IMG/VR virus record: IMGVR_UViG_3300044908_000010
Span: 1 to 32,745 of that record
DNA length: 32,745 nt
Reading direction: 5' to 3' (one strand)
DNA from: a virus
A program made the translations under genes and the position numbers. The notes under the pieces were generated by a model, which worked only from the letters and a program-made list of their open reading frames with translations, had not been told where the DNA came from and made no database searches. Numbering within the stretch: the first letter of the stretch is position 1; each line of letters opens with the position of its first letter. Positions 8,153 to 30,336 of this stretch are shown here, in pieces.

Positions 8153-9190
8153 ATGGCATCACTTGACATTTTCAACCAGGACCCGTTCTCGACTGTCACC
8201 TTGACGGCAGCGGTTGACAAATATCCGTACGAGCCGCAAGCGCTCGGCGAACTGAAGATTTTCGATGACGACCCGATCCGCACGACGGCTCTGGTCGTTG
8301 AGCAGCGCCAAGGGAAGTTGATCGTCGTTCCGCTGAGCGAGCGCGGCGAAGCGGGCACGCAGCGTACGACGGAAAAGCGCCAGGCGCGTTACTTCGAAGT
8401 GCCGCGTCTTCGCCATGAAGATACGATTTTCGCGAACGAACTGCAGAATATCCGCGCGTTCGGCACCGAATCGGAGCTGATGCAGGTTCAGGACGAAGTT
8501 GCGCGTCGCCTCTCCGGGCCGACCGGCCTGCTAAAGAATATTGAGAACACCTGGGAATTCCAACGTCTCGCCGCCGTTCAAGGTCTGTTCACCGACTACG
8601 ACGGGACCGTTATGTACAACTGGTTTCAGGAATTCGGCATCACGCAGCCGACCGAAGTCGGTTTCAATCTGGCTGCCGGCACCGCGAACTCGATCCGACC
8701 GATCTGCAATCAGATCGTCCGCTCGATGGCGCGCGCCGCTCAGGGCTCGTTCACTTCGAACACGCAAGTATGGGCGCTCGCCGGCGATACGTTCTATGAC
8801 CAGTTCGTCAATCACCCGGATGTGATTCGCACATTCATCAACTGGTCCGATGCGCGCGACATCCGCGGCGGTAATGTCGGTGGCGCGTTCACTGCGTTTG
8901 ACTTCGCTGGCATCAAATGGCTGAACTACCGCGGTTCGGATGACAACGTGTCCATCAAGATCCCGAACGACAAGGTCAAGTTCTTCCCGGTTGGCGCTCC
9001 CGGCATCTTCCGCCGAGCGCTGGCGCCGGGTGAATCGTTCCAGTGGGTCAACACCCCCGGCAAGCCGGTGTACGTGATTCCGATCATGGATCGCGACCGC
9101 AACGAGTGGGTAAAACTCGAAACTTCAAGCTACCCCTTGCATATCTGCACGAGACCGGAAGTACTGCAAAGCGGCCGTCAGGAAGCCTGA
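8153..9190 (+). CDS. Major capsid protein, lambda E family
   Basis: At 345 residues it is close to lambda E (341). Recognisable family segments are the N-terminal FNQDPFSTVTLTAAVDKYPY, TEKRQARYFEVPRLRHEDTIFANEL, the middle block AGDTFYDQFVNHPDVIRTF and the conserved C-terminal SYPLHICTRPEVL. It has the HK97-type fold that builds the icosahedral shell. AAGGAG lies about 10 nt before the ATG. The gene is complete: the CTRP-x-L end is present, and the endonuclease that follows begins in the stop codon (TGATG), so the mobile insertion left the capsid intact. It is preceded by a terminator, which is unusual for the most abundant protein of the particle. Confidence 0.95.
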   Translation: MASLDIFNQDPFSTVTLTAAVDKYPYEPQALGELKIFDDDPIRTTALVVEQRQGKLIVVPLSERGEAGTQRTTEKRQARYFEVPRLRHEDTIFANELQNIRAFGTESELMQVQDEVARRLSGPTGLLKNIENTWEFQRLAAVQGLFTDYDGTVMYNWFQEFGITQPTEVGFNLAAGTANSIRPICNQIVRSMARAAQGSFTSNTQVWALAGDTFYDQFVNHPDVIRTFINWSDARDIRGGNVGGAFTAFDFAGIKWLNYRGSDDNVSIKIPNDKVKFFPVGAPGIFRRALAPGESFQWVNTPGKPVYVIPIMDRDRNEWVKLETSSYPLHICTRPEVLQSGRQEA

Positions 9191-9939
9191 TGTTCGCCTA
9201 TCTCGTAACCGGGCCGTCCGGAAAGAGATATGTCGGCATCACCTCGGGAGAAATCGCGGCGCGCTGGCAGCAACATGTCAGCGCTGCGATTGCGCGCAGA
9301 TTCAATAGCGCTTTGCATGCGGCCATTCGCAAGTATGGCGCAGAGGCTTTCTCCGTCGAGCAAATAGGTTCCGCTGAAACATGGAAAGAACTGTGCGCGC
9401 TGGAGCGTTCGGCTATCGCCGAGCGCGGCACATTTACCCCCAATGGCTACAACCTGACGCTCGGCGGCGACGGCACTCCTGGTTATATCTATGCAAATAG
9501 ATCCCCGGAGTCGCAGGCGCAACTCTCGAAGAAGATCGCCGAGGCAAACGCCCGCAGAACCCCGGAGGAGCGCGCACGCATCGCCGAGGCGATCGCTGCA
9601 TCAAAGCGAGGGAAGCCTCGGCCGCCTGAGTTGATTGAGAAACTTGCTGCGCAGAAGCGCGGAAAGACTCATTCCGAAGAAGCGAGAGCGCGGATGTCGG
9701 CTGGGCATGTGGGCTTTAAACATTCAGCCGAGTCCCGCGAAAAGATGTCCGCGATTGCCAAGGCGCGTAGCGCTGAAAGCATGGCGAACTTCACAGGATG
9801 CCGAAAGGGGCAGCCGGTGTCTGACGAGACGCGTTCCAGGATGTCGGAAGCGGCTCGGGCGCGCAGTCAGGCTACCGCAGAGAAGATGCGGGAAATCTGG
9901 CGGCAACGCAAAGCAGCGCAGGCAGGAGGTGCTCCATGA
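9190..9939 (+). CDS. GIY-YIG homing endonuclease with NUMOD3 repeats
   Basis: ATG 9190 overlaps the capsid stop (TGATG) with AGGA just upstream, giving 249 residues. A longer frame from 9043 only runs through the capsid gene. The GIY-YIG domain shows AYLVTGPSGKRYVGIT (Y4, Y14-V-G16), catalytic R25 and H29 in RWQQH, probable catalytic E72 in LERSAI, and N88 in GYNLTLGGDG. Residues about 130-225 carry repeated NUMOD3 DNA-binding motifs (SKRGKPRPPE, KRGKTHSEEARARMS, KHSAESREKMS). It should make a site-specific break in the capsid-connector junction of related phages and spread by repair. The reading frame overlaps the next gene as ATGA, so it is tightly woven into the operon. Confidence 0.93.
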   Translation: MFAYLVTGPSGKRYVGITSGEIAARWQQHVSAAIARRFNSALHAAIRKYGAEAFSVEQIGSAETWKELCALERSAIAERGTFTPNGYNLTLGGDGTPGYIYANRSPESQAQLSKKIAEANARRTPEERARIAEAIAASKRGKPRPPELIEKLAAQKRGKTHSEEARARMSAGHVGFKHSAESREKMSAIAKARSAESMANFTGCRKGQPVSDETRSRMSEAARARSQATAEKMREIWRQRKAAQAGGAP

Positions 9940-21890: not shown

Positions 21891-22085
21891 ATGACGAATA
21901 TTGACGTCCAGTTCACTGATTCGGCCTCAACAGCCATTCTCTCGGTGTTTGCCGGCCCACAAGATCCGACGGCTTACCCTAACCAGGCTAATATTCCGAG
22001 CAGCGATGCGCGTTATGAGGCATGGTATGCGGCGCTTCCTGCGATTACGACGTGGAAGGGTGGTTTCGTAGTTCCAGGGACGTGA
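21891..22085 (+). CDS. Small protein downstream of tail fibre
   Basis: The 64 residues start 9 nt after the fibre gene, with GAGG about 7 nt before the ATG. The sequence TAILSVFAGPQDPTAYPNQANIPSSDARYEAWYAALP resembles the short proteins that sit behind fibres in phages of this group, where they may serve as fibre accessory or assembly factors. No motif proves this. The last 41 bases overlap the end of the convergent acyltransferase gene, so the 3' ends of two opposing transcripts are complementary. Confidence 0.7.
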   Translation: MTNIDVQFTDSASTAILSVFAGPQDPTAYPNQANIPSSDARYEAWYAALPAITTWKGGFVVPGT

Positions 22086-23190
22086 CCGCAACCCATCGCT
22101 TGCCGGCTCGAATAAACGGCTTTTCGATGAGTCGGGAGGCGATCACACCAAAAGCCACGACGGCGCATAGGGTGAATTCCCATCTCATGCCGAGCAGCAC
22201 CATCAGATAAACGATCGGCGCATGAAAGGCATAGATGCTGTACGCGCCCGATCCGAGTCCGCTGAAGATGTTACCGCGCGCGTTGCGATGTTCATCGATG
22301 GCTGAGACTAGGCAGGCGAAGCACACCGCGAATGCCATCTGCCTGACACCGGCGAGAAGTTGTGCGACATGCTCCCCGAATGGAAGGCTCAAGGTAAGGA
22401 CCAGCCAGATAAGAGCAGGAATGACGACGAATCGCCTCATTCGAGAAGCAAAACGACTGTCAGTGAATTTTGCGCCGATCCACCAGAACGGTAAAAAGGC
22501 GATCACGCTGGCGTTGTATGACCAGTAGCGCCAGTCTGGGACATGGGTGGTAATCGCAACACTGGCGAGCCAGCACACGACCATGACACCCCACCAGGCG
22601 CGCTCCGACCATCGGCTCATGAACAGGAGCGCAAGAGGATAGACGGCATACAGCCACATCTCGACAGCGACAGTTTGAAGTGGTCCATTCCCCTGAATCG
22701 ATGGAAAGAATGTGAGAGGGTTGACGGCCTCGACAGCAAACAGCTTTCCGATGATGTGAATGATCGAAAGCGATTGCGTGCCGGTCACCCATGGAACTCT
22801 GACAGGGTCGACAGAAGCGCCGATCAGGAAGGCGCCGACCCCGAAAAATGTAGAGATGAAGAAGACCGGATAAATCCGGAAAAATCGTCGTATTGCGTAT
22901 GCGCGAATACCGTCCTGAGGCGATCGCATGCCGCTCCGGTGGATGCAGTAGCCGCTGAGAACGATGAATCCAAGGACGGCAGGATGCGTCTCGCTATTAC
23001 TCATGAGCAGGCTTAGCAGCCAATCCATGACTGAGGCTAGGCCTTTCGGAATTGCGGTCTGCGTCTGAATCAGGACGACCCAAGGAACCATGTGAGTGAA
23101 CACGACCCACATGGCCAGGATGAAACGAAGCGAGTCGATATGAGGCGAGCGACTGTGATCGACCGGAATGTCGAGAATGGGAGCGCGCAT
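22045..23190 (-). CDS. Acyltransferase 3 (O-acetyltransferase) membrane protein
   Basis: The 381-residue protein has about ten hydrophobic segments. The signature R-x10-H of AT3 proteins is present at R22 and H33 (RFILAMWVVFTH), followed by the GFIVLSGYCIHRSG loop, FRIYPVFF and a C-terminal GSGAYSIYAFHAPIVYLMV. Such enzymes move acetyl or other acyl groups across the inner membrane onto polysaccharide, typically O-antigen, and are well-known phage serotype-conversion genes. It is last in a minus-strand cassette, 9 nt behind a 52-residue ORF, without a clear ribosome binding site, so coupling is likely. A role in changing the phage receptor on lysogens is an inference. Confidence 0.92.
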   Translation of the reverse strand: MRAPILDIPVDHSRSPHIDSLRFILAMWVVFTHMVPWVVLIQTQTAIPKGLASVMDWLLSLLMSNSETHPAVLGFIVLSGYCIHRSGMRSPQDGIRAYAIRRFFRIYPVFFISTFFGVGAFLIGASVDPVRVPWVTGTQSLSIIHIIGKLFAVEAVNPLTFFPSIQGNGPLQTVAVEMWLYAVYPLALLFMSRWSERAWWGVMVVCWLASVAITTHVPDWRYWSYNASVIAFLPFWWIGAKFTDSRFASRMRRFVVIPALIWLVLTLSLPFGEHVAQLLAGVRQMAFAVCFACLVSAIDEHRNARGNIFSGLGSGAYSIYAFHAPIVYLMVLLGMRWEFTLCAVVAFGVIASRLIEKPFIRAGKRWVAVTSLELRNHPSTS

Positions 23191-23199
23191 CTAGCGGGA

Positions 23200-23358
23200 T
23201 TATTCGGGGTTATCTTCGGCCGCCTTCTCGCTTAAAGGCGGCGTAACGAATCGCCCTTTCTGCTGGTGAAGTACGGCCAGATCCTTGTCCGCGGTGTGCA
23301 TGACGTCGCCCGTTTCGAACTCGATTCGGTACATGATCTCTTTCGCATCGTCAGTCAT
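23200..23358 (-). CDS. 52-residue hypothetical protein
   Basis: I choose ATG 23358 because GGAGG lies 5 nt upstream; an ATG at 23391 would add 11 residues. The protein (TDDAKEIMYRIEFETGDVMHTADKDLAVLHQQKGRF) looks like a small soluble alpha/beta protein without a signal or membrane segment. It sits between the barrel and acyltransferase genes of the minus-strand cassette, ending 9 nt before the acyltransferase start. No family recognised. A perfect 8-bp inverted repeat lies in its last codons. Confidence 0.72.
   Translation of the reverse strand: MTDDAKEIMYRIEFETGDVMHTADKDLAVLHQQKGRFVTPPLSEKAAEDNPE
23219..23242 (-). other. Inverted repeat in the 52-residue ORF
   Basis: GCCGCCTT 23219-23226 and AAGGCGGC 23235-23242 form a perfect 8-bp stem with an 8-nt loop. 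On the minus-strand transcript no T-run follows, so it is not an ordinary terminator. It ends about 28 nt before the acyltransferase start and could hinder or time translation of that gene. Confidence 0.4.
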
Positions 23359-23402
23359 GATTTCCTCCGTGTGAGGGCCGTACTTTACCATTCCCGACCG
23401 AA

Positions 23403-24197
23403 TCAGTATTTGTAACGTATCAGTAAGCTATCCACAGAATGCCAGATCGCTGGTCCCGAGTTATTGCTCGTCGGCTTGACGAAAAAATGCTGGTAGACGA
23501 GCGAGAAATTGTCGTAGCTCACCGATGCGCCAACGACCGCTCCCACACGCCAGCCGTCCGAACTCATGTAGCGCAAGCTGATGGGTGCGGGTTGCCAGTT
23601 GTGATAGATGATGTTTGAGACGTCCTCCGTCCAGACGGTCTTATGGATGAACGGACCCGCCTCGATGCCCAGGCGCCAGTTGCCCACTCGGTAGTACGGT
23701 TCGAGCGAGAGAATGAACCCGGCTTCATGGCCCGAGCCTTGGTAGCGCGCGAGCGGGAGGCACGGACCGTTGCAGCTTTTGGTAGCGGGGTTGTAATCCG
23801 CATCCAACGGGACCGCTTCGGCATCAGTATGCACCGTGCCAAGCCAGGCGTAATCGGCATGCCAGTCTACGCCCCAGCTTGGCGCCCTCCAGATCGGTCC
23901 GGTGAGACCCGCCTCGACGGCCGGCGCCGTGAGTTGCAACTTGTGCGGGAAGGCTTCCTGATACCAGTAACTATCGACACCCTTGCTATACGCCGATCCG
24001 CCGATGGCGGCTTCCAGATGAAGATAGTCGGCAACGCCGTCTGCCTTTGCCGCGGCGGCGGCACAACCGAGAGTCACGGCTATAGCGGCTGCCCGCCAGC
24101 GAGATCTGGTTTTGCGGTCCGACCGGCTTGCGGCGATAGGCGCACGAGAAGCGCGACGAACGCGCGACGATTGAACCACCCGATTTTGCGTGTGCAT
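23403..24197 (-). CDS. Predicted outer-membrane beta-barrel protein
   Basis: The 264 residues start with an unusually long Arg/Ser-rich stretch (1-34), then a signal-like core (AAAIAVTLGCAAAAAKA) with probable cleavage after A52. The mature part alternates aromatic-rich strands (SYWYQEAFPHKLQL, WGVDWHADYAWLGTV, EAGFILSLEPYYRVGNWRLGIEAG, GWRVGAVVGASVSYDNFSLVYQHFF) and ends in Tyr (LLIRYKY), as outer-membrane barrels do. One loop has a Cys pair (KSCNGPC). It starts in the stop codon of the SGNH lipoprotein gene (TAATG) behind GGAG. I do not recognise a lipid A deacylase or PagP motif with confidence, so enzyme, pore or receptor blocker all remain possible. Confidence 0.75.
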   Translation of the reverse strand: MHTQNRVVQSSRVRRASRAPIAASRSDRKTRSRWRAAAIAVTLGCAAAAAKADGVADYLHLEAAIGGSAYSKGVDSYWYQEAFPHKLQLTAPAVEAGLTGPIWRAPSWGVDWHADYAWLGTVHTDAEAVPLDADYNPATKSCNGPCLPLARYQGSGHEAGFILSLEPYYRVGNWRLGIEAGPFIHKTVWTEDVSNIIYHNWQPAPISLRYMSSDGWRVGAVVGASVSYDNFSLVYQHFFVKPTSNNSGPAIWHSVDSLLIRYKY

Positions 24198-25081
24198 TAT
24201 TGTGCTCCAACGATGCTCTTAACGAGCGGCGCGAGAACTGCGGCCTGCCGCTGGGCCTTGATGCTCAACAGCCAGTCATCCGGGAAAAGGCATCCGGACA
24301 TATGGCTTTGCCAGTTCGGCAGGCTCTGGATGTAGTCAAACTGTTTCACTAATGGCACGTTGTATTGCGCAGCAATGTTGTCCATCGTCGTGACGTAGTT
24401 TTCGAGATATGGGTGATTGCCATCGCAGACTGGGTTCGGTTCCTCGATAACCGGCGCCTTTCCGGCAATCCTGACGTCCTGAATCCACGCAATCAACGCG
24501 TCGGTATATGGTCCGAGCGACTGCGCAAGATCGTCATTAATCGCGTGGTTGACCAGCTCTATATCGGCCTTCGATGTCGCCATACGTTGCGCGAACGGTG
24601 GGCCGCCTCCGTCGACGCCATTCATCATATTGACCAACGAACTCGCTGTACCGCCCTCGGCCAGATTGCTGATGGTGACGCTGTCGCCAAACTGCGCACG
24701 TAGCAGCGCCTGCGAATCAACCGGCTCCGTCTGTTGTGTGATTGCTGGCATGCCGTAGCTCTCGCTCGTAATGCCATACATCGCGTCGTCGCCGTGAATC
24801 TCTATCAGGACTGGCTTTGGCGGCGGTGGGGCGACAACTGGCGCCGATGCGGCTGGCGCGGACGCTGCGGCGGGAGTTGATGCCGCCGACGGGCTTGATG
24901 CGACCGGCGCTGAAGCAGTGGCCGGTGCGCTGGCTTGAGGTGGGGCCGACGCAGGCACTGAGATTGACGGCGCCGATGCGGCCTGTGCAGTCGGGGTCGA
25001 ATTCGATCCACTACCACCGCATGCCGAGAGTGCGCAAGCAGCGAAGGCGGCTATTGCTCCGGCTCGCCAGCGTCCTCCGAT
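24197..25081 (-). CDS. SGNH/GDSL-fold lipoprotein with degenerate catalytic residues
   Basis: Numbering is from a possible ATC start at 25081. A signal peptide ends in the lipobox LSAC (C21), an Ala/Pro/Ser-rich linker spans about 31-90, and a SGNH-like domain follows: block I IEIHGDDAMYG (G97-D98-D99), block II NLAEGGTAS, block III INDD (N182), IEEPNP, and block V CLFPDDW. Where GDS is expected there is GDD, and the His before Pro seems to be Phe266, so the esterase triad looks broken. The frame is open back to ATG 25393, but this part overlaps the HTH gene and no ATG, GTG or TTG exists in between, so the start is unresolved. It is coupled to the barrel gene (TAATG). Confidence 0.75.
   Translation of the reverse strand: MGGRWRAGAIAAFAACALSACGGSGSNSTPTAQAASAPSISVPASAPPQASAPATASAPVASSPSAASTPAAASAPAASAPVVAPPPPKPVLIEIHGDDAMYGITSESYGMPAITQQTEPVDSQALLRAQFGDSVTISNLAEGGTASSLVNMMNGVDGGGPPFAQRMATSKADIELVNHAINDDLAQSLGPYTDALIAWIQDVRIAGKAPVIEEPNPVCDGNHPYLENYVTTMDNIAAQYNVPLVKQFDYIQSLPNWQSHMSGCLFPDDWLLSIKAQRQAAVLAPLVKSIVGAQ
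24812..24990 (-). repeat. Ala/Pro/Ser-rich linker
   Basis: About 60 codons between the lipobox and the SGNH domain are almost only Ala, Pro, Ser, Thr and Val, with repeated SAP and SAPA units. This length could span much of the periplasm from a membrane-anchored Cys. Confidence 0.7.
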
Positions 25082-25344
25082 AGATCGATTGAAGCTCCGA
25101 CCCGGCGCATTCGCGCGAGGATTCGCTCGATAACTTCGGCGCTCAGCTCGAGGCGAGCCATGGCGAAGAAAAGCATGTATGCGCCGAGCTCGCGCTTGTT
25201 CCTGGCGGTGTCTGATCTGGACGTGTATCGGCGAAATGCCCGGTCCCCGGCGACGCCAAACAATTTCGCCATCTGTGTGCCGTTCAAACCGAGTTCCGTC
25301 TTCAGTCGCTCGATGTCCTCTGGACGAGGGGGCTTGTAATGCAT
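25051..25344 (-). CDS. Small helix-turn-helix protein
   Basis: ATG 25344 gives 97 residues; a GTG at 25377 would add 11 but lies inside a hairpin. The sequence PRPEDIERLKTELGLNGTQMAKLFGVAGDRAFRRYTS has the XRE-like HTH pattern (GLNGTQMAKLFGV as the turn), followed by a long helical tail (LGAYMLFFAMARLELSAEVIERILARMRRVGA). I recall related proteins in Burkholderia prophages. It is first in the minus-strand cassette, behind a good promoter, and so is the natural candidate for controlling it, perhaps on itself. Its end overlaps the 5' part of the SGNH gene. Confidence 0.82.
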   Translation of the reverse strand: MHYKPPRPEDIERLKTELGLNGTQMAKLFGVAGDRAFRRYTSRSDTARNKRELGAYMLFFAMARLELSAEVIERILARMRRVGASIDLSEDAGEPEQ

Positions 25345-25359
25345 GTCGGGAGATTCCAG

Positions 25360-25377
25360 GTGCGCGAAAAGGCGCAC
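25360..25377 (-). other. Leader hairpin before the HTH gene
   Basis: GTGCGC 25360-25365 and GCGCAC 25372-25377 form a perfect 6-bp stem with loop GAAAAG (plus-strand reading). It lies 15 nt upstream of ATG 25344 and covers the alternative GTG start. It could affect access to the weak GGA ribosome binding site. Confidence 0.45.
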
Positions 25378-25447
25378 GAAAGCAGGCTTTCATGATCGTT
25401 CCTATCGGGATGTCGGACCGCGCGGTATGCGAGGTGCCAGTGCGATC

Positions 25448-25477
25448 AGAATAGGGCCAATGGTCCTAGTAAGTCAA
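25448..25477 (-). promoter_or_regulatory. Sigma70-type promoter for the minus-strand cassette
   Basis: On the minus strand TTGACT (25477-25472) is followed after 18 nt by TATTCT (25453-25448), a 5/6 and 4/6 match to the consensus boxes. The spacer holds an imperfect inverted repeat, GGACCA-T-TGGCCC, a possible operator. The first gene starts about 100 nt downstream. It is the clearest promoter in the window. Confidence 0.6.
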
Positions 25478-25501: not shown

Positions 25502-25527
25502 AAAGGCTGCCTCCGGGCGGCCTTATT
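25502..25527 (+). terminator. Intrinsic terminator before the lysis genes
   Basis: GGCTGCC 25505-25511, loop TCCG, GGGCGGCC 25515-25522 (one G-T pair), then TTATT and CATTT. The interrupted T-run makes it weaker than its relatives. The next gene starts 17 nt later. Confidence 0.7.
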
Positions 25528-26935: not shown

Positions 26936-28795
26936 ATGACTGTCGTCGTTCTCACATCAGGGACCAGCTACACGATCCCGGGCGATTGGTCATCTACCAA
27001 CCAGATTGAAACTTGGGGTGCTGGCGGCGGCGGCGCAGGCGTTAGCACTTCGAACACCTGCCCTTCGACGGGGGGCGGCTCTGGCGGCTATTCGTCGATC
27101 AGCAATGTGACAGGCCTTTCGGGGTCTATCGCAATCTCCATTGGTACCGGAGGACCGGGGGGTGCTTCGGGTAATAACTCAGGCACGAGTGGCGGCCCGA
27201 CATGGTTCAACGGAGCAACCCAATCCGTTAGCACCGTATCTGCCAACGGAGGTGGCGGCGGCATCGCCAGTGCAAGCGCCACGTCTATAGCTGGGGGCGC
27301 TGGAGCGACTACAACTGGTGCAACTGGCACAACCAAAACCGCAGGGTCTGCCGGCGGCGCTGTAGCCAACGACACTGTCGCCGCAAGCGGCGGCGCAGGC
27401 GCTCCAGGCCCTCAGGGACTCGGTGCGGTGGGCGGCGCAGGAACATCGACTACGACAGGCGCGGGTGGTGCAGGCGACAGTGGAAGCGGTGGTGCAGGCG
27501 GTTCAAGTGTTTCGTATTCATCGGGCAGTGCGGGCAATCCTGGTACAGCCAATAGCAATGGTGGGGGCGGAGGGGGTGCGGCATCAAACGGCGCAGGGGG
27601 CGCAGGCGCACTGCCTGGCGGCGGTGGAGGCAGTACTACCGGATTTAGCTCGAATGGTGCTGGTGGCGCAGCTGGCGGGGGGCAGATCCGCATTACGTAC
27701 ACGCCGGCCAGCTCCGGAGTAACCGGAACAGCCGCATCAACGCAAGCGGCCAATACATCTACTGCATCCGGCGCGGTCGCCATCTCCGGATCGTCTGCCG
27801 GCACGCAGCAGGGCAATACTGATGCGGTATCTGGTGCCGTAGCAATCTCCGGATCGGCAGCATCAACACAAGTTGCAAACGCCGATGCCGGATCGGGTTC
27901 CGTTGCAATCTCTGGATCATCGGCCAGCGTCCAAGCCGGCAACATCGATTCTGCATCTGCCCAAAACGCCATATCAGGCGCGAGTGCATCGGCGCAAGCG
28001 AAGAATACGAGCGTTGTTATTGGTGCCGTTGCTGCCGCAGGCGCGAGCGCTTCAAACCAGGCTGTAAATACCGCAAGCACTGCGGGCCTCGTGCTGATAT
28101 CAAGCGCAGGCACCTCGGCGCAGCAAGCAAACATCGGCGCGGCATCTGGTGCGGTCGCCGTCGCCGGTACTTCGGCAAGCACACAAGCGCCGAGCGCCTC
28201 AAACGCTTCTGGCGTGGTCGGCAACGTCTCGCAAGGTAATGCGGCAAGCATGCAGGCGGCCAATACGGATTCTGCTGCGGGCAGTGCGGCTATCGCAGCA
28301 GCTGCGGCATCGGCGCAAGGAAGGAACGCCGCGGCGGCATCCGGGGCGCTGGCCATTGCCTCATCTGCCGCGTCGACGCAGATCGCCAACACCGAGATCT
28401 CAATTGGCGCGGTTGTGGTTTCTGGCGCGGCTGCCTCGATGCAGGCCGCGAATAGCGATTCAGCGTCGGGCATTGTCCCGGTTTCCGCCTCGAGCGGCTC
28501 AGCGCAACAGGCAAATTCCGCAGCAGCAAACGGGACGTCGACCCTCGGCGGTGGAATCGTCGGCGCTTCTGCGAGCACGCAGGCCGCGAACGAGGCTGCT
28601 GTCGTCGGATGGGTGATTCCGACAAGTCTCGGATCGCCGCTTATTGCTGTGCCGGCTGAGCGCCGCATACTCAGCGCCGTGGTCGAGGAGCGCATGCTTA
28701 TCGTGACCGGCGAGCGACGTGTATTCGCAGCGAGCGCCGAGCAGAGAATTCTGACGATACTCAATGAGAAGCGGATTTTCGGAACTGCTGCGTAA
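26936..28795 (+). CDS. Glycine-rich, 21-residue-repeat fibre-like protein
   Basis: The 619 residues fall into three parts. Residues 1-20 (TVVVLTSGTSYTIPGDW) and 20-260 form a Gly-rich domain of the type found in phage fibres (GAGGGGAG, GGGSGGY, SANGGGGG). Residues about 264-563 carry 14 copies of a 21-residue repeat with a core like GSAASTQAAN-T followed by SGAVAIS. The C-terminus has five copies of a 9-10-residue repeat with E-R near the start (ERRIL, ERMLI, ERRVF, EQRIL, EKRIF). Such regular Gln/Asn-containing repeats suggest a beta-solenoid or fibrous trimer, so a receptor-binding or surface fibre is likely. It is in a separate locus from the first fibre, next to a fibre-tail adaptor. Confidence 0.78.
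   Translation: MTVVVLTSGTSYTIPGDWSSTNQIETWGAGGGGAGVSTSNTCPSTGGGSGGYSSISNVTGLSGSIAISIGTGGPGGASGNNSGTSGGPTWFNGATQSVSTVSANGGGGGIASASATSIAGGAGATTTGATGTTKTAGSAGGAVANDTVAASGGAGAPGPQGLGAVGGAGTSTTTGAGGAGDSGSGGAGGSSVSYSSGSAGNPGTANSNGGGGGGAASNGAGGAGALPGGGGGSTTGFSSNGAGGAAGGGQIRITYTPASSGVTGTAASTQAANTSTASGAVAISGSSAGTQQGNTDAVSGAVAISGSAASTQVANADAGSGSVAISGSSASVQAGNIDSASAQNAISGASASAQAKNTSVVIGAVAAAGASASNQAVNTASTAGLVLISSAGTSAQQANIGAASGAVAVAGTSASTQAPSASNASGVVGNVSQGNAASMQAANTDSAAGSAAIAAAAASAQGRNAAAASGALAIASSAASTQIANTEISIGAVVVSGAAASMQAANSDSASGIVPVSASSGSAQQANSAAANGTSTLGGGIVGASASTQAANEAAVVGWVIPTSLGSPLIAVPAERRILSAVVEERMLIVTGERRVFAASAEQRILTILNEKRIFGTAA
27725..28625 (+). repeat. Fourteen 63-bp (21-codon) tandem repeats
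   Basis: Units begin G-[TSA]-[AS]-[AS]-[SG]-x-Q-x-x-N and end in [SA]-G-x-V-x-[IV]-[SA]; 13 intervals cover 27725-28562, one of them a few codons longer. DNA identity between units is only partial. Copies 1-4 are most alike, whereas later copies have drifted, which suggests expansion at the 5' side. Confidence 0.85.
28655..28780 (+). repeat. Five short E-R repeats at fibre C-terminus
   Basis: Five units of 9 to 10 codons (A-E-R-R-I-L, E-E-R-M-L-I, G-E-R-R-V-F, A-E-Q-R-I-L, N-E-K-R-I-F) end the fibre-like gene. The regular charged pair and hydrophobic pair suggest short stacked beta strands, possibly an attachment point to the particle. Confidence 0.65.
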
Positions 28796-29718: not shown

Positions 29719-30336
29719 ATGGCTATCCGCAATCCTACACCAATTGGTGAAACCTTCGGGCGTTTGACGGTTATTGAAGAGGCGCCGCGCGTAAAAAAGT
29801 ATGTTCGCCGCGTTTCGGCGATGTGCTCGTGTGGAACTGTTAGAGACTACGATCTAGACAAGCTATTCACCGGCAACACCAAATCCTGCGGTTGCTTTGA
29901 GCGCGATCACCCCAGCCGGACTAGGCATGGCCAGAATCGAGGCGGCGCAGCATCCGGATCGTACCGGACCTGGAAGGCCATGAAACAGCGTTGCTCGGAC
30001 CCAAACAGCATTGGATGGAATGAGTACGGCGGCCGCGGCATCAGGGTCTGCGAGCGCTGGATAAATTCTTTCGAGAACTTTTTCCAAGACATGGGCGAGC
30101 GGCCGGTCGGCATGACGCTAGATCGCGAGCGAGTTAATGAGGACTACGGCCCCGGCAATTGCAAATGGGCCACGCGGAAGGAGCAAAGCAACAACAGGCG
30201 CAATACCATCTTCCTTGAGTTTAAAGGAGGGAAGATGGCGATTTCCCAATGGGCCGATGAATTAGGAGTCGGCTACAGCGTGCTATATGGACGGTACGCC
30301 AAAGGCTGGCCGCCCGAGCGAATACTTGCTGCTTAA
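29719..30336 (+). CDS. HNH/His-Me-finger-type mobile endonuclease-like protein
   Basis: The 205-residue protein has an N-terminal zinc site (CSCG at 36-39, CGC at 57-59) and the core TWKAMKQRC, YGGRGIRVCERW (103-114), FFQDMGERP, LDRERVN, YGPGNCKWATRKEQSNNRRN. I know this core from very common phage proteins related to homing endonucleases. A C-terminal HTH-like part (MAISQWADELGVGYSVLYGRYAKGWPPERIL) would read DNA. It stands alone between structural genes, with its own hairpin in front and terminator behind, which looks like a self-contained insertion. Nuclease activity is inferred. Confidence 0.82.
   Translation: MAIRNPTPIGETFGRLTVIEEAPRVKKYVRRVSAMCSCGTVRDYDLDKLFTGNTKSCGCFERDHPSRTRHGQNRGGAASGSYRTWKAMKQRCSDPNSIGWNEYGGRGIRVCERWINSFENFFQDMGERPVGMTLDRERVNEDYGPGNCKWATRKEQSNNRRNTIFLEFKGGKMAISQWADELGVGYSVLYGRYAKGWPPERILAA

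Follow-up and report, generated by a model that had tools for sequence, protein, structure and literature searches.

The minus-strand gene cassette of the virus record IMGVR_UViG_3300044908_000010 raises the question of how an exported protein is translated when no start codon lies near its signal peptide and another gene occupies the sequence ahead of it. The window, to which the cassette coordinates refer, is this entire IMG/VR record of 32,745 bases. A sequence-only reading had placed five minus-strand genes between forward tail-fibre and lysis genes, and all five open reading frames (ORFs) are found there. It treated two of them, encoding a helix-turn-helix (HTH) regulator and an SGNH-fold lipoprotein, as successive genes, while they are in fact overlapping frames of one stretch. 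The SGNH frame contains no ATG, GTG or TTG from the HTH start to the signal peptide RWRAGAIAAFAACALSACGG, which lies in this frame without a start codon of its own and overlaps the HTH stop codon. Followed backwards, the frame stays open across all of HTH, up to an ATG in position 25393, located 49 nt upstream of the HTH ATG and preceded by an AGGA ribosome site. HTH lies entirely within the 5' part of the SGNH ORF, which is read in the -1 frame relative to HTH, designated here as frame 2. Beyond this virus, the nested arrangement is present in over 70 related loci. With a probability of about 70%, the locus is read here as a self-regulated lysogenic-conversion cassette whose exported protein has the HTH gene overprinted in its leader. 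The features concerned are the following.

24197–25393, minus strand: exported-protein ORF of 398 amino acids, with a 124-residue leader including the signal peptide, then the SGNH lipoprotein
25051–25344, minus strand: XRE-like HTH regulator of 97 amino acids, lying inside the leader in a different frame
25019–25072, minus strand: end of the signal peptide with the lipobox RWRAGAIAAFAACALSAC, encoded in the SGNH frame across the stop codon of HTH
25400–25403, minus strand: Shine-Dalgarno sequence AGGA for the leader ATG, assigned from pairing energy

The regulator matches phrog_20491 with the E-value 2e-20; the Pfam match to Xre-like-HTH (E-value 0.0014) is weak and below the curated cut-off. 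The protein has the HTH domain of an XRE-type regulator, and its BZS1 and IFTN8 homologues carry an XRE annotation.

The collection comprises 94 non-redundant sequences, the window being one of them, drawn from viral contigs as well as from Paraburkholderia, Ralstonia and Burkholderiales genomes. HTH is accompanied by SGNH in 24 loci, by an outer-membrane barrel in 23 and by both in 8, and this recurrence in 55 non-redundant loci indicates that the set is not due to chance. The joint recurrence of the HTH, SGNH and barrel genes upholds the idea of a separately transcribed, envelope-directed prophage cassette. Frame 2 is open through HTH in all 55 loci, against 3.7 expected under synonymous codon reshuffling, which left it open in about 6% of trials. 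The probability is 10^-27 over 23 clusters defined at 70% nucleotide identity, using the largest probability within each cluster. HTH homologues in phages without cargo serve as a natural control; their frame 2 is open in 4/25 (1.8 expected) and closed in 21/25, and they mostly have their own ribosome site. A held-out set of 146 host-genus genomes gave 18 new HTH loci. The frame is open in 17 of these; 16 carry an in-frame cargo, and 16 have an in-frame start preceded by a ribosome site. The only closed locus (L233) has a barrel interrupted by a stop; the loci without in-frame cargo are L239, with a broken barrel, and L228, where the open leader is retained.

A start with a ribosome site was recognized 10–52 nt upstream of the HTH ATG in 55/55 loci, always in frame 2. 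The spacings differ between loci, yet each preserves the cargo frame. The mean anti-Shine-Dalgarno pairing energy is -5.4 kcal/mol for the leader ATG, and -2.3 kcal/mol for both the HTH ATG and random ATGs. For the best start of cargo-less HTH genes, the mean is -5.65 kcal/mol.

Codon-position counts clarified that substitutions cluster at HTH third positions, and thus the HTH frame is the sequence-constrained one. Frame 2 is kept open while the leader sequence varies freely, and such weak constraint would be expected if the leader is discarded. The two genes constitute a same-strand overlapping pair with selection on both frames, indicated for HTH by the codon-position counts and for the cargo by frame openness and the controls. 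Around the HTH end, the counts change only gradually. They are flat in the short leader, where all three frames are mostly open, and are therefore uninformative there.

The leader type is joined to two unrelated cargo types, a GDSL-like (SGNH) lipoprotein or an 8-stranded barrel; the same leader is found on the barrel of Paraburkholderia phage IPK. HTH genes with 86–97% identity carry different cargo, exchanged within the signal-peptide codons (L006, L028, L082 and L054). In nearly all relatives, Gly-Gly comes after the lipobox Cys. The leader open frame stops shortly after HTH in L005 and L007. ORFs with KilA-N and AP2 domains lie between HTH and the barrel in these two loci (L005:7318-7998 and L007:7414-7998). 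The HTH alignment contained no conserved stretch usable for scanning the collection. Downstream tail genes, where detected, are on the opposite strand in 52/52 loci, and several loci have opposite-strand endolysin homologues upstream.

The control region upstream of the leader contains the following features.

25448–25477, minus strand: cassette promoter TTGACT-18-TATTCT, sigma-70-like, with a TTGAC -35 element in 53/55 related loci
25452–25468, minus strand: putative autorepressor operator, the dyad TAGGACCATTGGCCCTA in the -35/-10 spacer, with dyads at the same place in most loci
25414–25439, minus strand: hairpin in the 5' untranslated region (UTR), mean z -1.3 across loci
25503–25524, plus strand: terminator-like hairpin separating the forward lysis genes from the cassette promoter, a single match within chance expectation

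The single promoter proposed from the sequence was recovered; no other was found in 21.8–25.8 kb. The promoter match alone does not exceed chance, while its conservation across loci does. Hairpins resembling that at 25503–25524 are found upstream of many related cassettes. The spacer dyad differs in sequence among loci and is palindromic in most (mean score 4.3 versus 0.3 in shuffles), with two thirds of the dyads scoring above the 95th percentile. Loci that are more alike in the HTH helix region also have more similar operators (Mantel r 0.37; maximum of 1000 permutations 0.13). This covariation suggests that HTH is an autorepressor acting at the dyad in the promoter spacer.

Among 53 related promoters, recognition-helix/operator pairs can be listed: GRQFHKYL with ATCACCCTAGGGGTGAT, RQWRRY with GTACCC-GGGTAC, and SRRWRxY with TAGGCGGAATCCGCCTA. 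A short hairpin precedes the ribosome site in the window and in 51 related 5' UTRs, with compensatory changes at some pairs. RNAalifold on a gappy alignment retained only four pairs of it, three of them compensated, and the overall energy is weak. No Rfam family was found in the window.

The coding features downstream of the leader are as follows.

24200–24838, minus strand: SGNH-fold domain, degenerate, with GDD replacing GDS and without DxxH, assigned from a fold model (TesA 1u8u)
23403–24197, minus strand: outer-membrane beta-barrel with signal peptide, assigned from a predicted structure matching OmpA (modelled part 23406–24041)
23200–23358, minus strand: 52-residue protein with a good Shine-Dalgarno sequence and no relatives found
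22045–23190, minus strand: AT3 acyltransferase with R-X10-H and RXXR motifs and a PF01757 match

The SGNH fold anticipated from the sequence is confirmed by an AF2 model (pLDDT 94), whose best PDB match is TesA 1u8u with the E-value 1.3e-9. The window protein reads GDD and GCLF at the catalytic sites and does not have the catalytic Ser, Asp and His. In all 43 cassette-type SGNH sequences, Asp takes the place of the nucleophile Ser and the Asp of DxxH is gone; the His is missing from 42/43, and another, new His is invariant. The triad is kept in 8/8 GDS-type copies in the alignment. Codon substitution patterns show that the family is conserved rather than decaying. By sequence, the window protein is an SGNH-fold pseudo-enzyme and is not classed as a hydrolase; a surface sugar is a possible ligand of the GDD type. 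Tandem SGNH genes occur in L014, L032, L108, L135, L141, L105, L119, L120 and L131, where the GDD copy without catalytic residues comes first, and the second copy is GDS-type with DxxH in most of these loci.

The stop codon of SGNH and the start codon of the barrel share base 24197, bearing out the TAATG junction noticed earlier. The barrel is likewise confirmed as an outer-membrane protein: its model (pLDDT 94) has eight main strands and matches OmpA, and a signal peptide is present. OMP_b-brl matches were obtained in 8/51 relatives, a Xanthomonas phage FoX1 protein is the closest match among viruses, and the barrel sequence had no real match in the PDB. The AT3 identity rests on PF01757 (E-value 6.1e-22) together with the motifs R-FILAMWVVFT-H and RFFR, and the protein belongs to this family; R-X10-H, in transmembrane segment 1 (TM1), and RXXR are given as motifs of AT3 proteins (PMC9833829). 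No match to AT3 was obtained with tblastn against named phages.

The five genes do not form one unit as had been proposed. SGNH and the barrel do recur with HTH in the neighbourhoods, as expected, while the 52-residue protein is unique to this locus. AT3 is located within 4 kb in 42/104 loci (~40%) and absent from most. AT3 and the 52-residue protein were therefore rejected as conserved core members. The third slot is often occupied by a surface-polysaccharide enzyme, and a 2OG-Fe(II) oxygenase is found there in L020. In L017 (2942-5659), AT3 is replaced by GT2, a GtrA-like gene of 130 residues and a gene of 461 residues, resembling a gtr serotype-conversion cluster.

The proposed course of expression is as follows. 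A single transcript would begin just past the -10 element (25448). Ribosomes would initiate at the leader ATG 25393 and read the -1 frame across HTH into the signal peptide and the secreted cargo, which at this locus is predicted to be the SGNH-fold lipoprotein. Signal peptidase II, or signal peptidase I for barrel cargo, would cut off the leader and signal peptide at export. The discarded leader would be nearly free in sequence and able to encode HTH in the other frame; the overprinting is possible because the leader and signal peptide are probably removed. HTH would be a secondary product of the same mRNA, binding the -35/-10 dyad and limiting expression. The downstream barrel would insert into the outer membrane, and the inner-membrane AT3 would acylate surface polysaccharide, probably altering phage receptors. 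It is likely that the cassette has a lysogenic-conversion role, and surface polysaccharide modification with phage exclusion is plausible. On balance, we also favor the broader view that betaproteobacterial prophages reuse one 5' module, consisting of the operator-promoter, the 5' UTR hairpin and the leader ORF with its overprinted autorepressor, and that recombination inside the signal-peptide codons joins different exported envelope proteins to it. The segment lost on export would then be free coding space for the regulator, and the cargo and its limiter would be inseparable.

Several points weigh against this account. The HTH ATG has no visible ribosome site, so the translation of HTH is not accounted for. 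SGNH has an additional ATG of its own in L012, L013, L091, L153 and L154, and the leader is possibly dispensable in those loci. About 105 residues precede the signal peptide, far beyond any extended autotransporter signal known to us. The codon-position counts give no strong amino-acid selection on the leader, and the covariation of operator and HTH may be partly due to common descent. The change of polysaccharide and the exclusion of phages are proposed from homology.

The cargo could instead be reached by a programmed -1 frameshift near the 3' end of HTH, yielding both HTH and an HTH-cargo fusion, and it fits this explanation that the cargo frame is always -1 and overlaps the HTH stop codon. 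A frameshift, however, needs neither an open frame 2 through the whole of HTH nor an upstream ATG preceded by a Shine-Dalgarno sequence, both seen in 55/55 loci; the HTH start lacks such a sequence, and no common slippery heptamer was observed in the overlaps inspected by eye. It was rejected as the main route on account of the open frame, the upstream start and the missing HTH Shine-Dalgarno sequence, and we regard it as quite unlikely. Even less probable is an open frame 2 produced by codon bias, with the cargo initiated internally at a non-standard codon beside the signal peptide. GC-rich genes can leave other frames open, as happens in the cargo genes for 9% of 95-codon windows, and barrel-type loci have an ATG within the hydrophobic core. 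The reshuffled codons and the mostly closed cargo-less homologues nevertheless speak against it, chance openness was rejected on the 55/55 count and these controls, and the SGNH signal peptides share no start-like codon ahead of them.

The remaining alternative concerns function rather than translation. The sequence-only reading had combined AT3, SGNH and the barrel into one envelope-spanning machine for polysaccharide O-acylation, in which SGNH would be the acyl carrier. Fused SGNH domains are known partners of AT3 (PMC9833829), AT3 does accompany a substantial share of the loci, and its two motifs are intact in the window. The cassette SGNH nevertheless lacks the residues with which it could take or transfer acyl groups, and in most loci AT3 is missing, with glycosyltransferase or oxygenase genes present instead in some. 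SGNH is unlikely to be the catalytic partner or acyl carrier of AT3 because its catalytic Ser, Asp and His are lost; the partnership is not supported, the acyl-carrier role was rejected, and the machine as a whole is improbable. The self-regulated cassette with the HTH gene overprinted in the exported-protein leader remains the preferred reading.

Surface-modifying morons of phages are already known. The moron of Serratia phage vB_SspM_BZS1, consisting of HTH p25 and O-acetyltransferase p24, was proposed as a surface modification protecting against superinfection (PMC7556043). Its HTH is 46% identical to that of the window, AT3 adjoins it, and the pair is opposite to the tail genes; in contrast, its HTH frame 2 is closed by 8 stops, exported cargo is absent, and the genes are consecutive. 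Shigella phage Sf6 Oac and other serotype-converting phage acyltransferases, as cited in PMC7556043, share with the cassette a prophage AT3 expected to acetylate O-antigen. We know of no nested regulator, lipoprotein or barrel in Sf6 Oac and similar systems. In Burkholderia phage Magia (NC_070954), too, the interval from tail fibre to holin contains an SGNH gene together with AT3, but the SGNH esterase of Magia is GDS-type with its own start, HTH is absent, and the SGNH and O-acetyltransferase genes are convergent.

In lambda Rz/Rz1, the spanin genes are nested in different frames of one stretch and one product is a lipoprotein. There, the lipoprotein is nested within the gene of an inner-membrane protein, whereas in the cassette a cytoplasmic regulator is nested within the leader of an exported protein. 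Long autotransporter signal sequences have extended N-terminal regions ahead of the signal peptide (PMC2805444). The cassette leader resembles them in this extension. To our knowledge, those extensions are much shorter, and none carries a second gene. The open-licence literature searched yielded no case of a regulator nested in an exported-protein leader with swappable cargo, and we know of none nested out of frame in such a leader.

Bacteria and their viruses seldom have long same-strand overlaps for which both frames are well supported. The present overlap recurs in more than 70 loci and comes with a natural control group, and its tolerance has a simple suggested reason, the probable discarding of the overlapping part on export. 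A gene finder that assigns a single gene to each stretch would truncate the exported protein or lose HTH. For recognition rules, the HTH/operator pairs already make up a usable data set, and the GDD-type SGNH, in some loci with an intact GDS copy behind it, provides a phage pseudo-enzyme/enzyme pair.

Three further plus-strand ORFs of the window were recognized. At 9187–9939, directly 3' of a capsid-like gene, a protein reads like a GIY-YIG homing endonuclease (MFAYLVTGPSGKRYVGIT...). An HNH/AP2-like mobile ORF (SGSYRTWKAMKQRCSDPN...) is located at 29719–30336 within the late region, with a relative close to the cassette of L005 (5033-5701). The ORF at 26936–28795 encodes a Gly/Ala/Ser-rich protein of 619 residues with many degenerate repeats of the ASTQAANT.SGAVAISG type, which is possibly a fibre.

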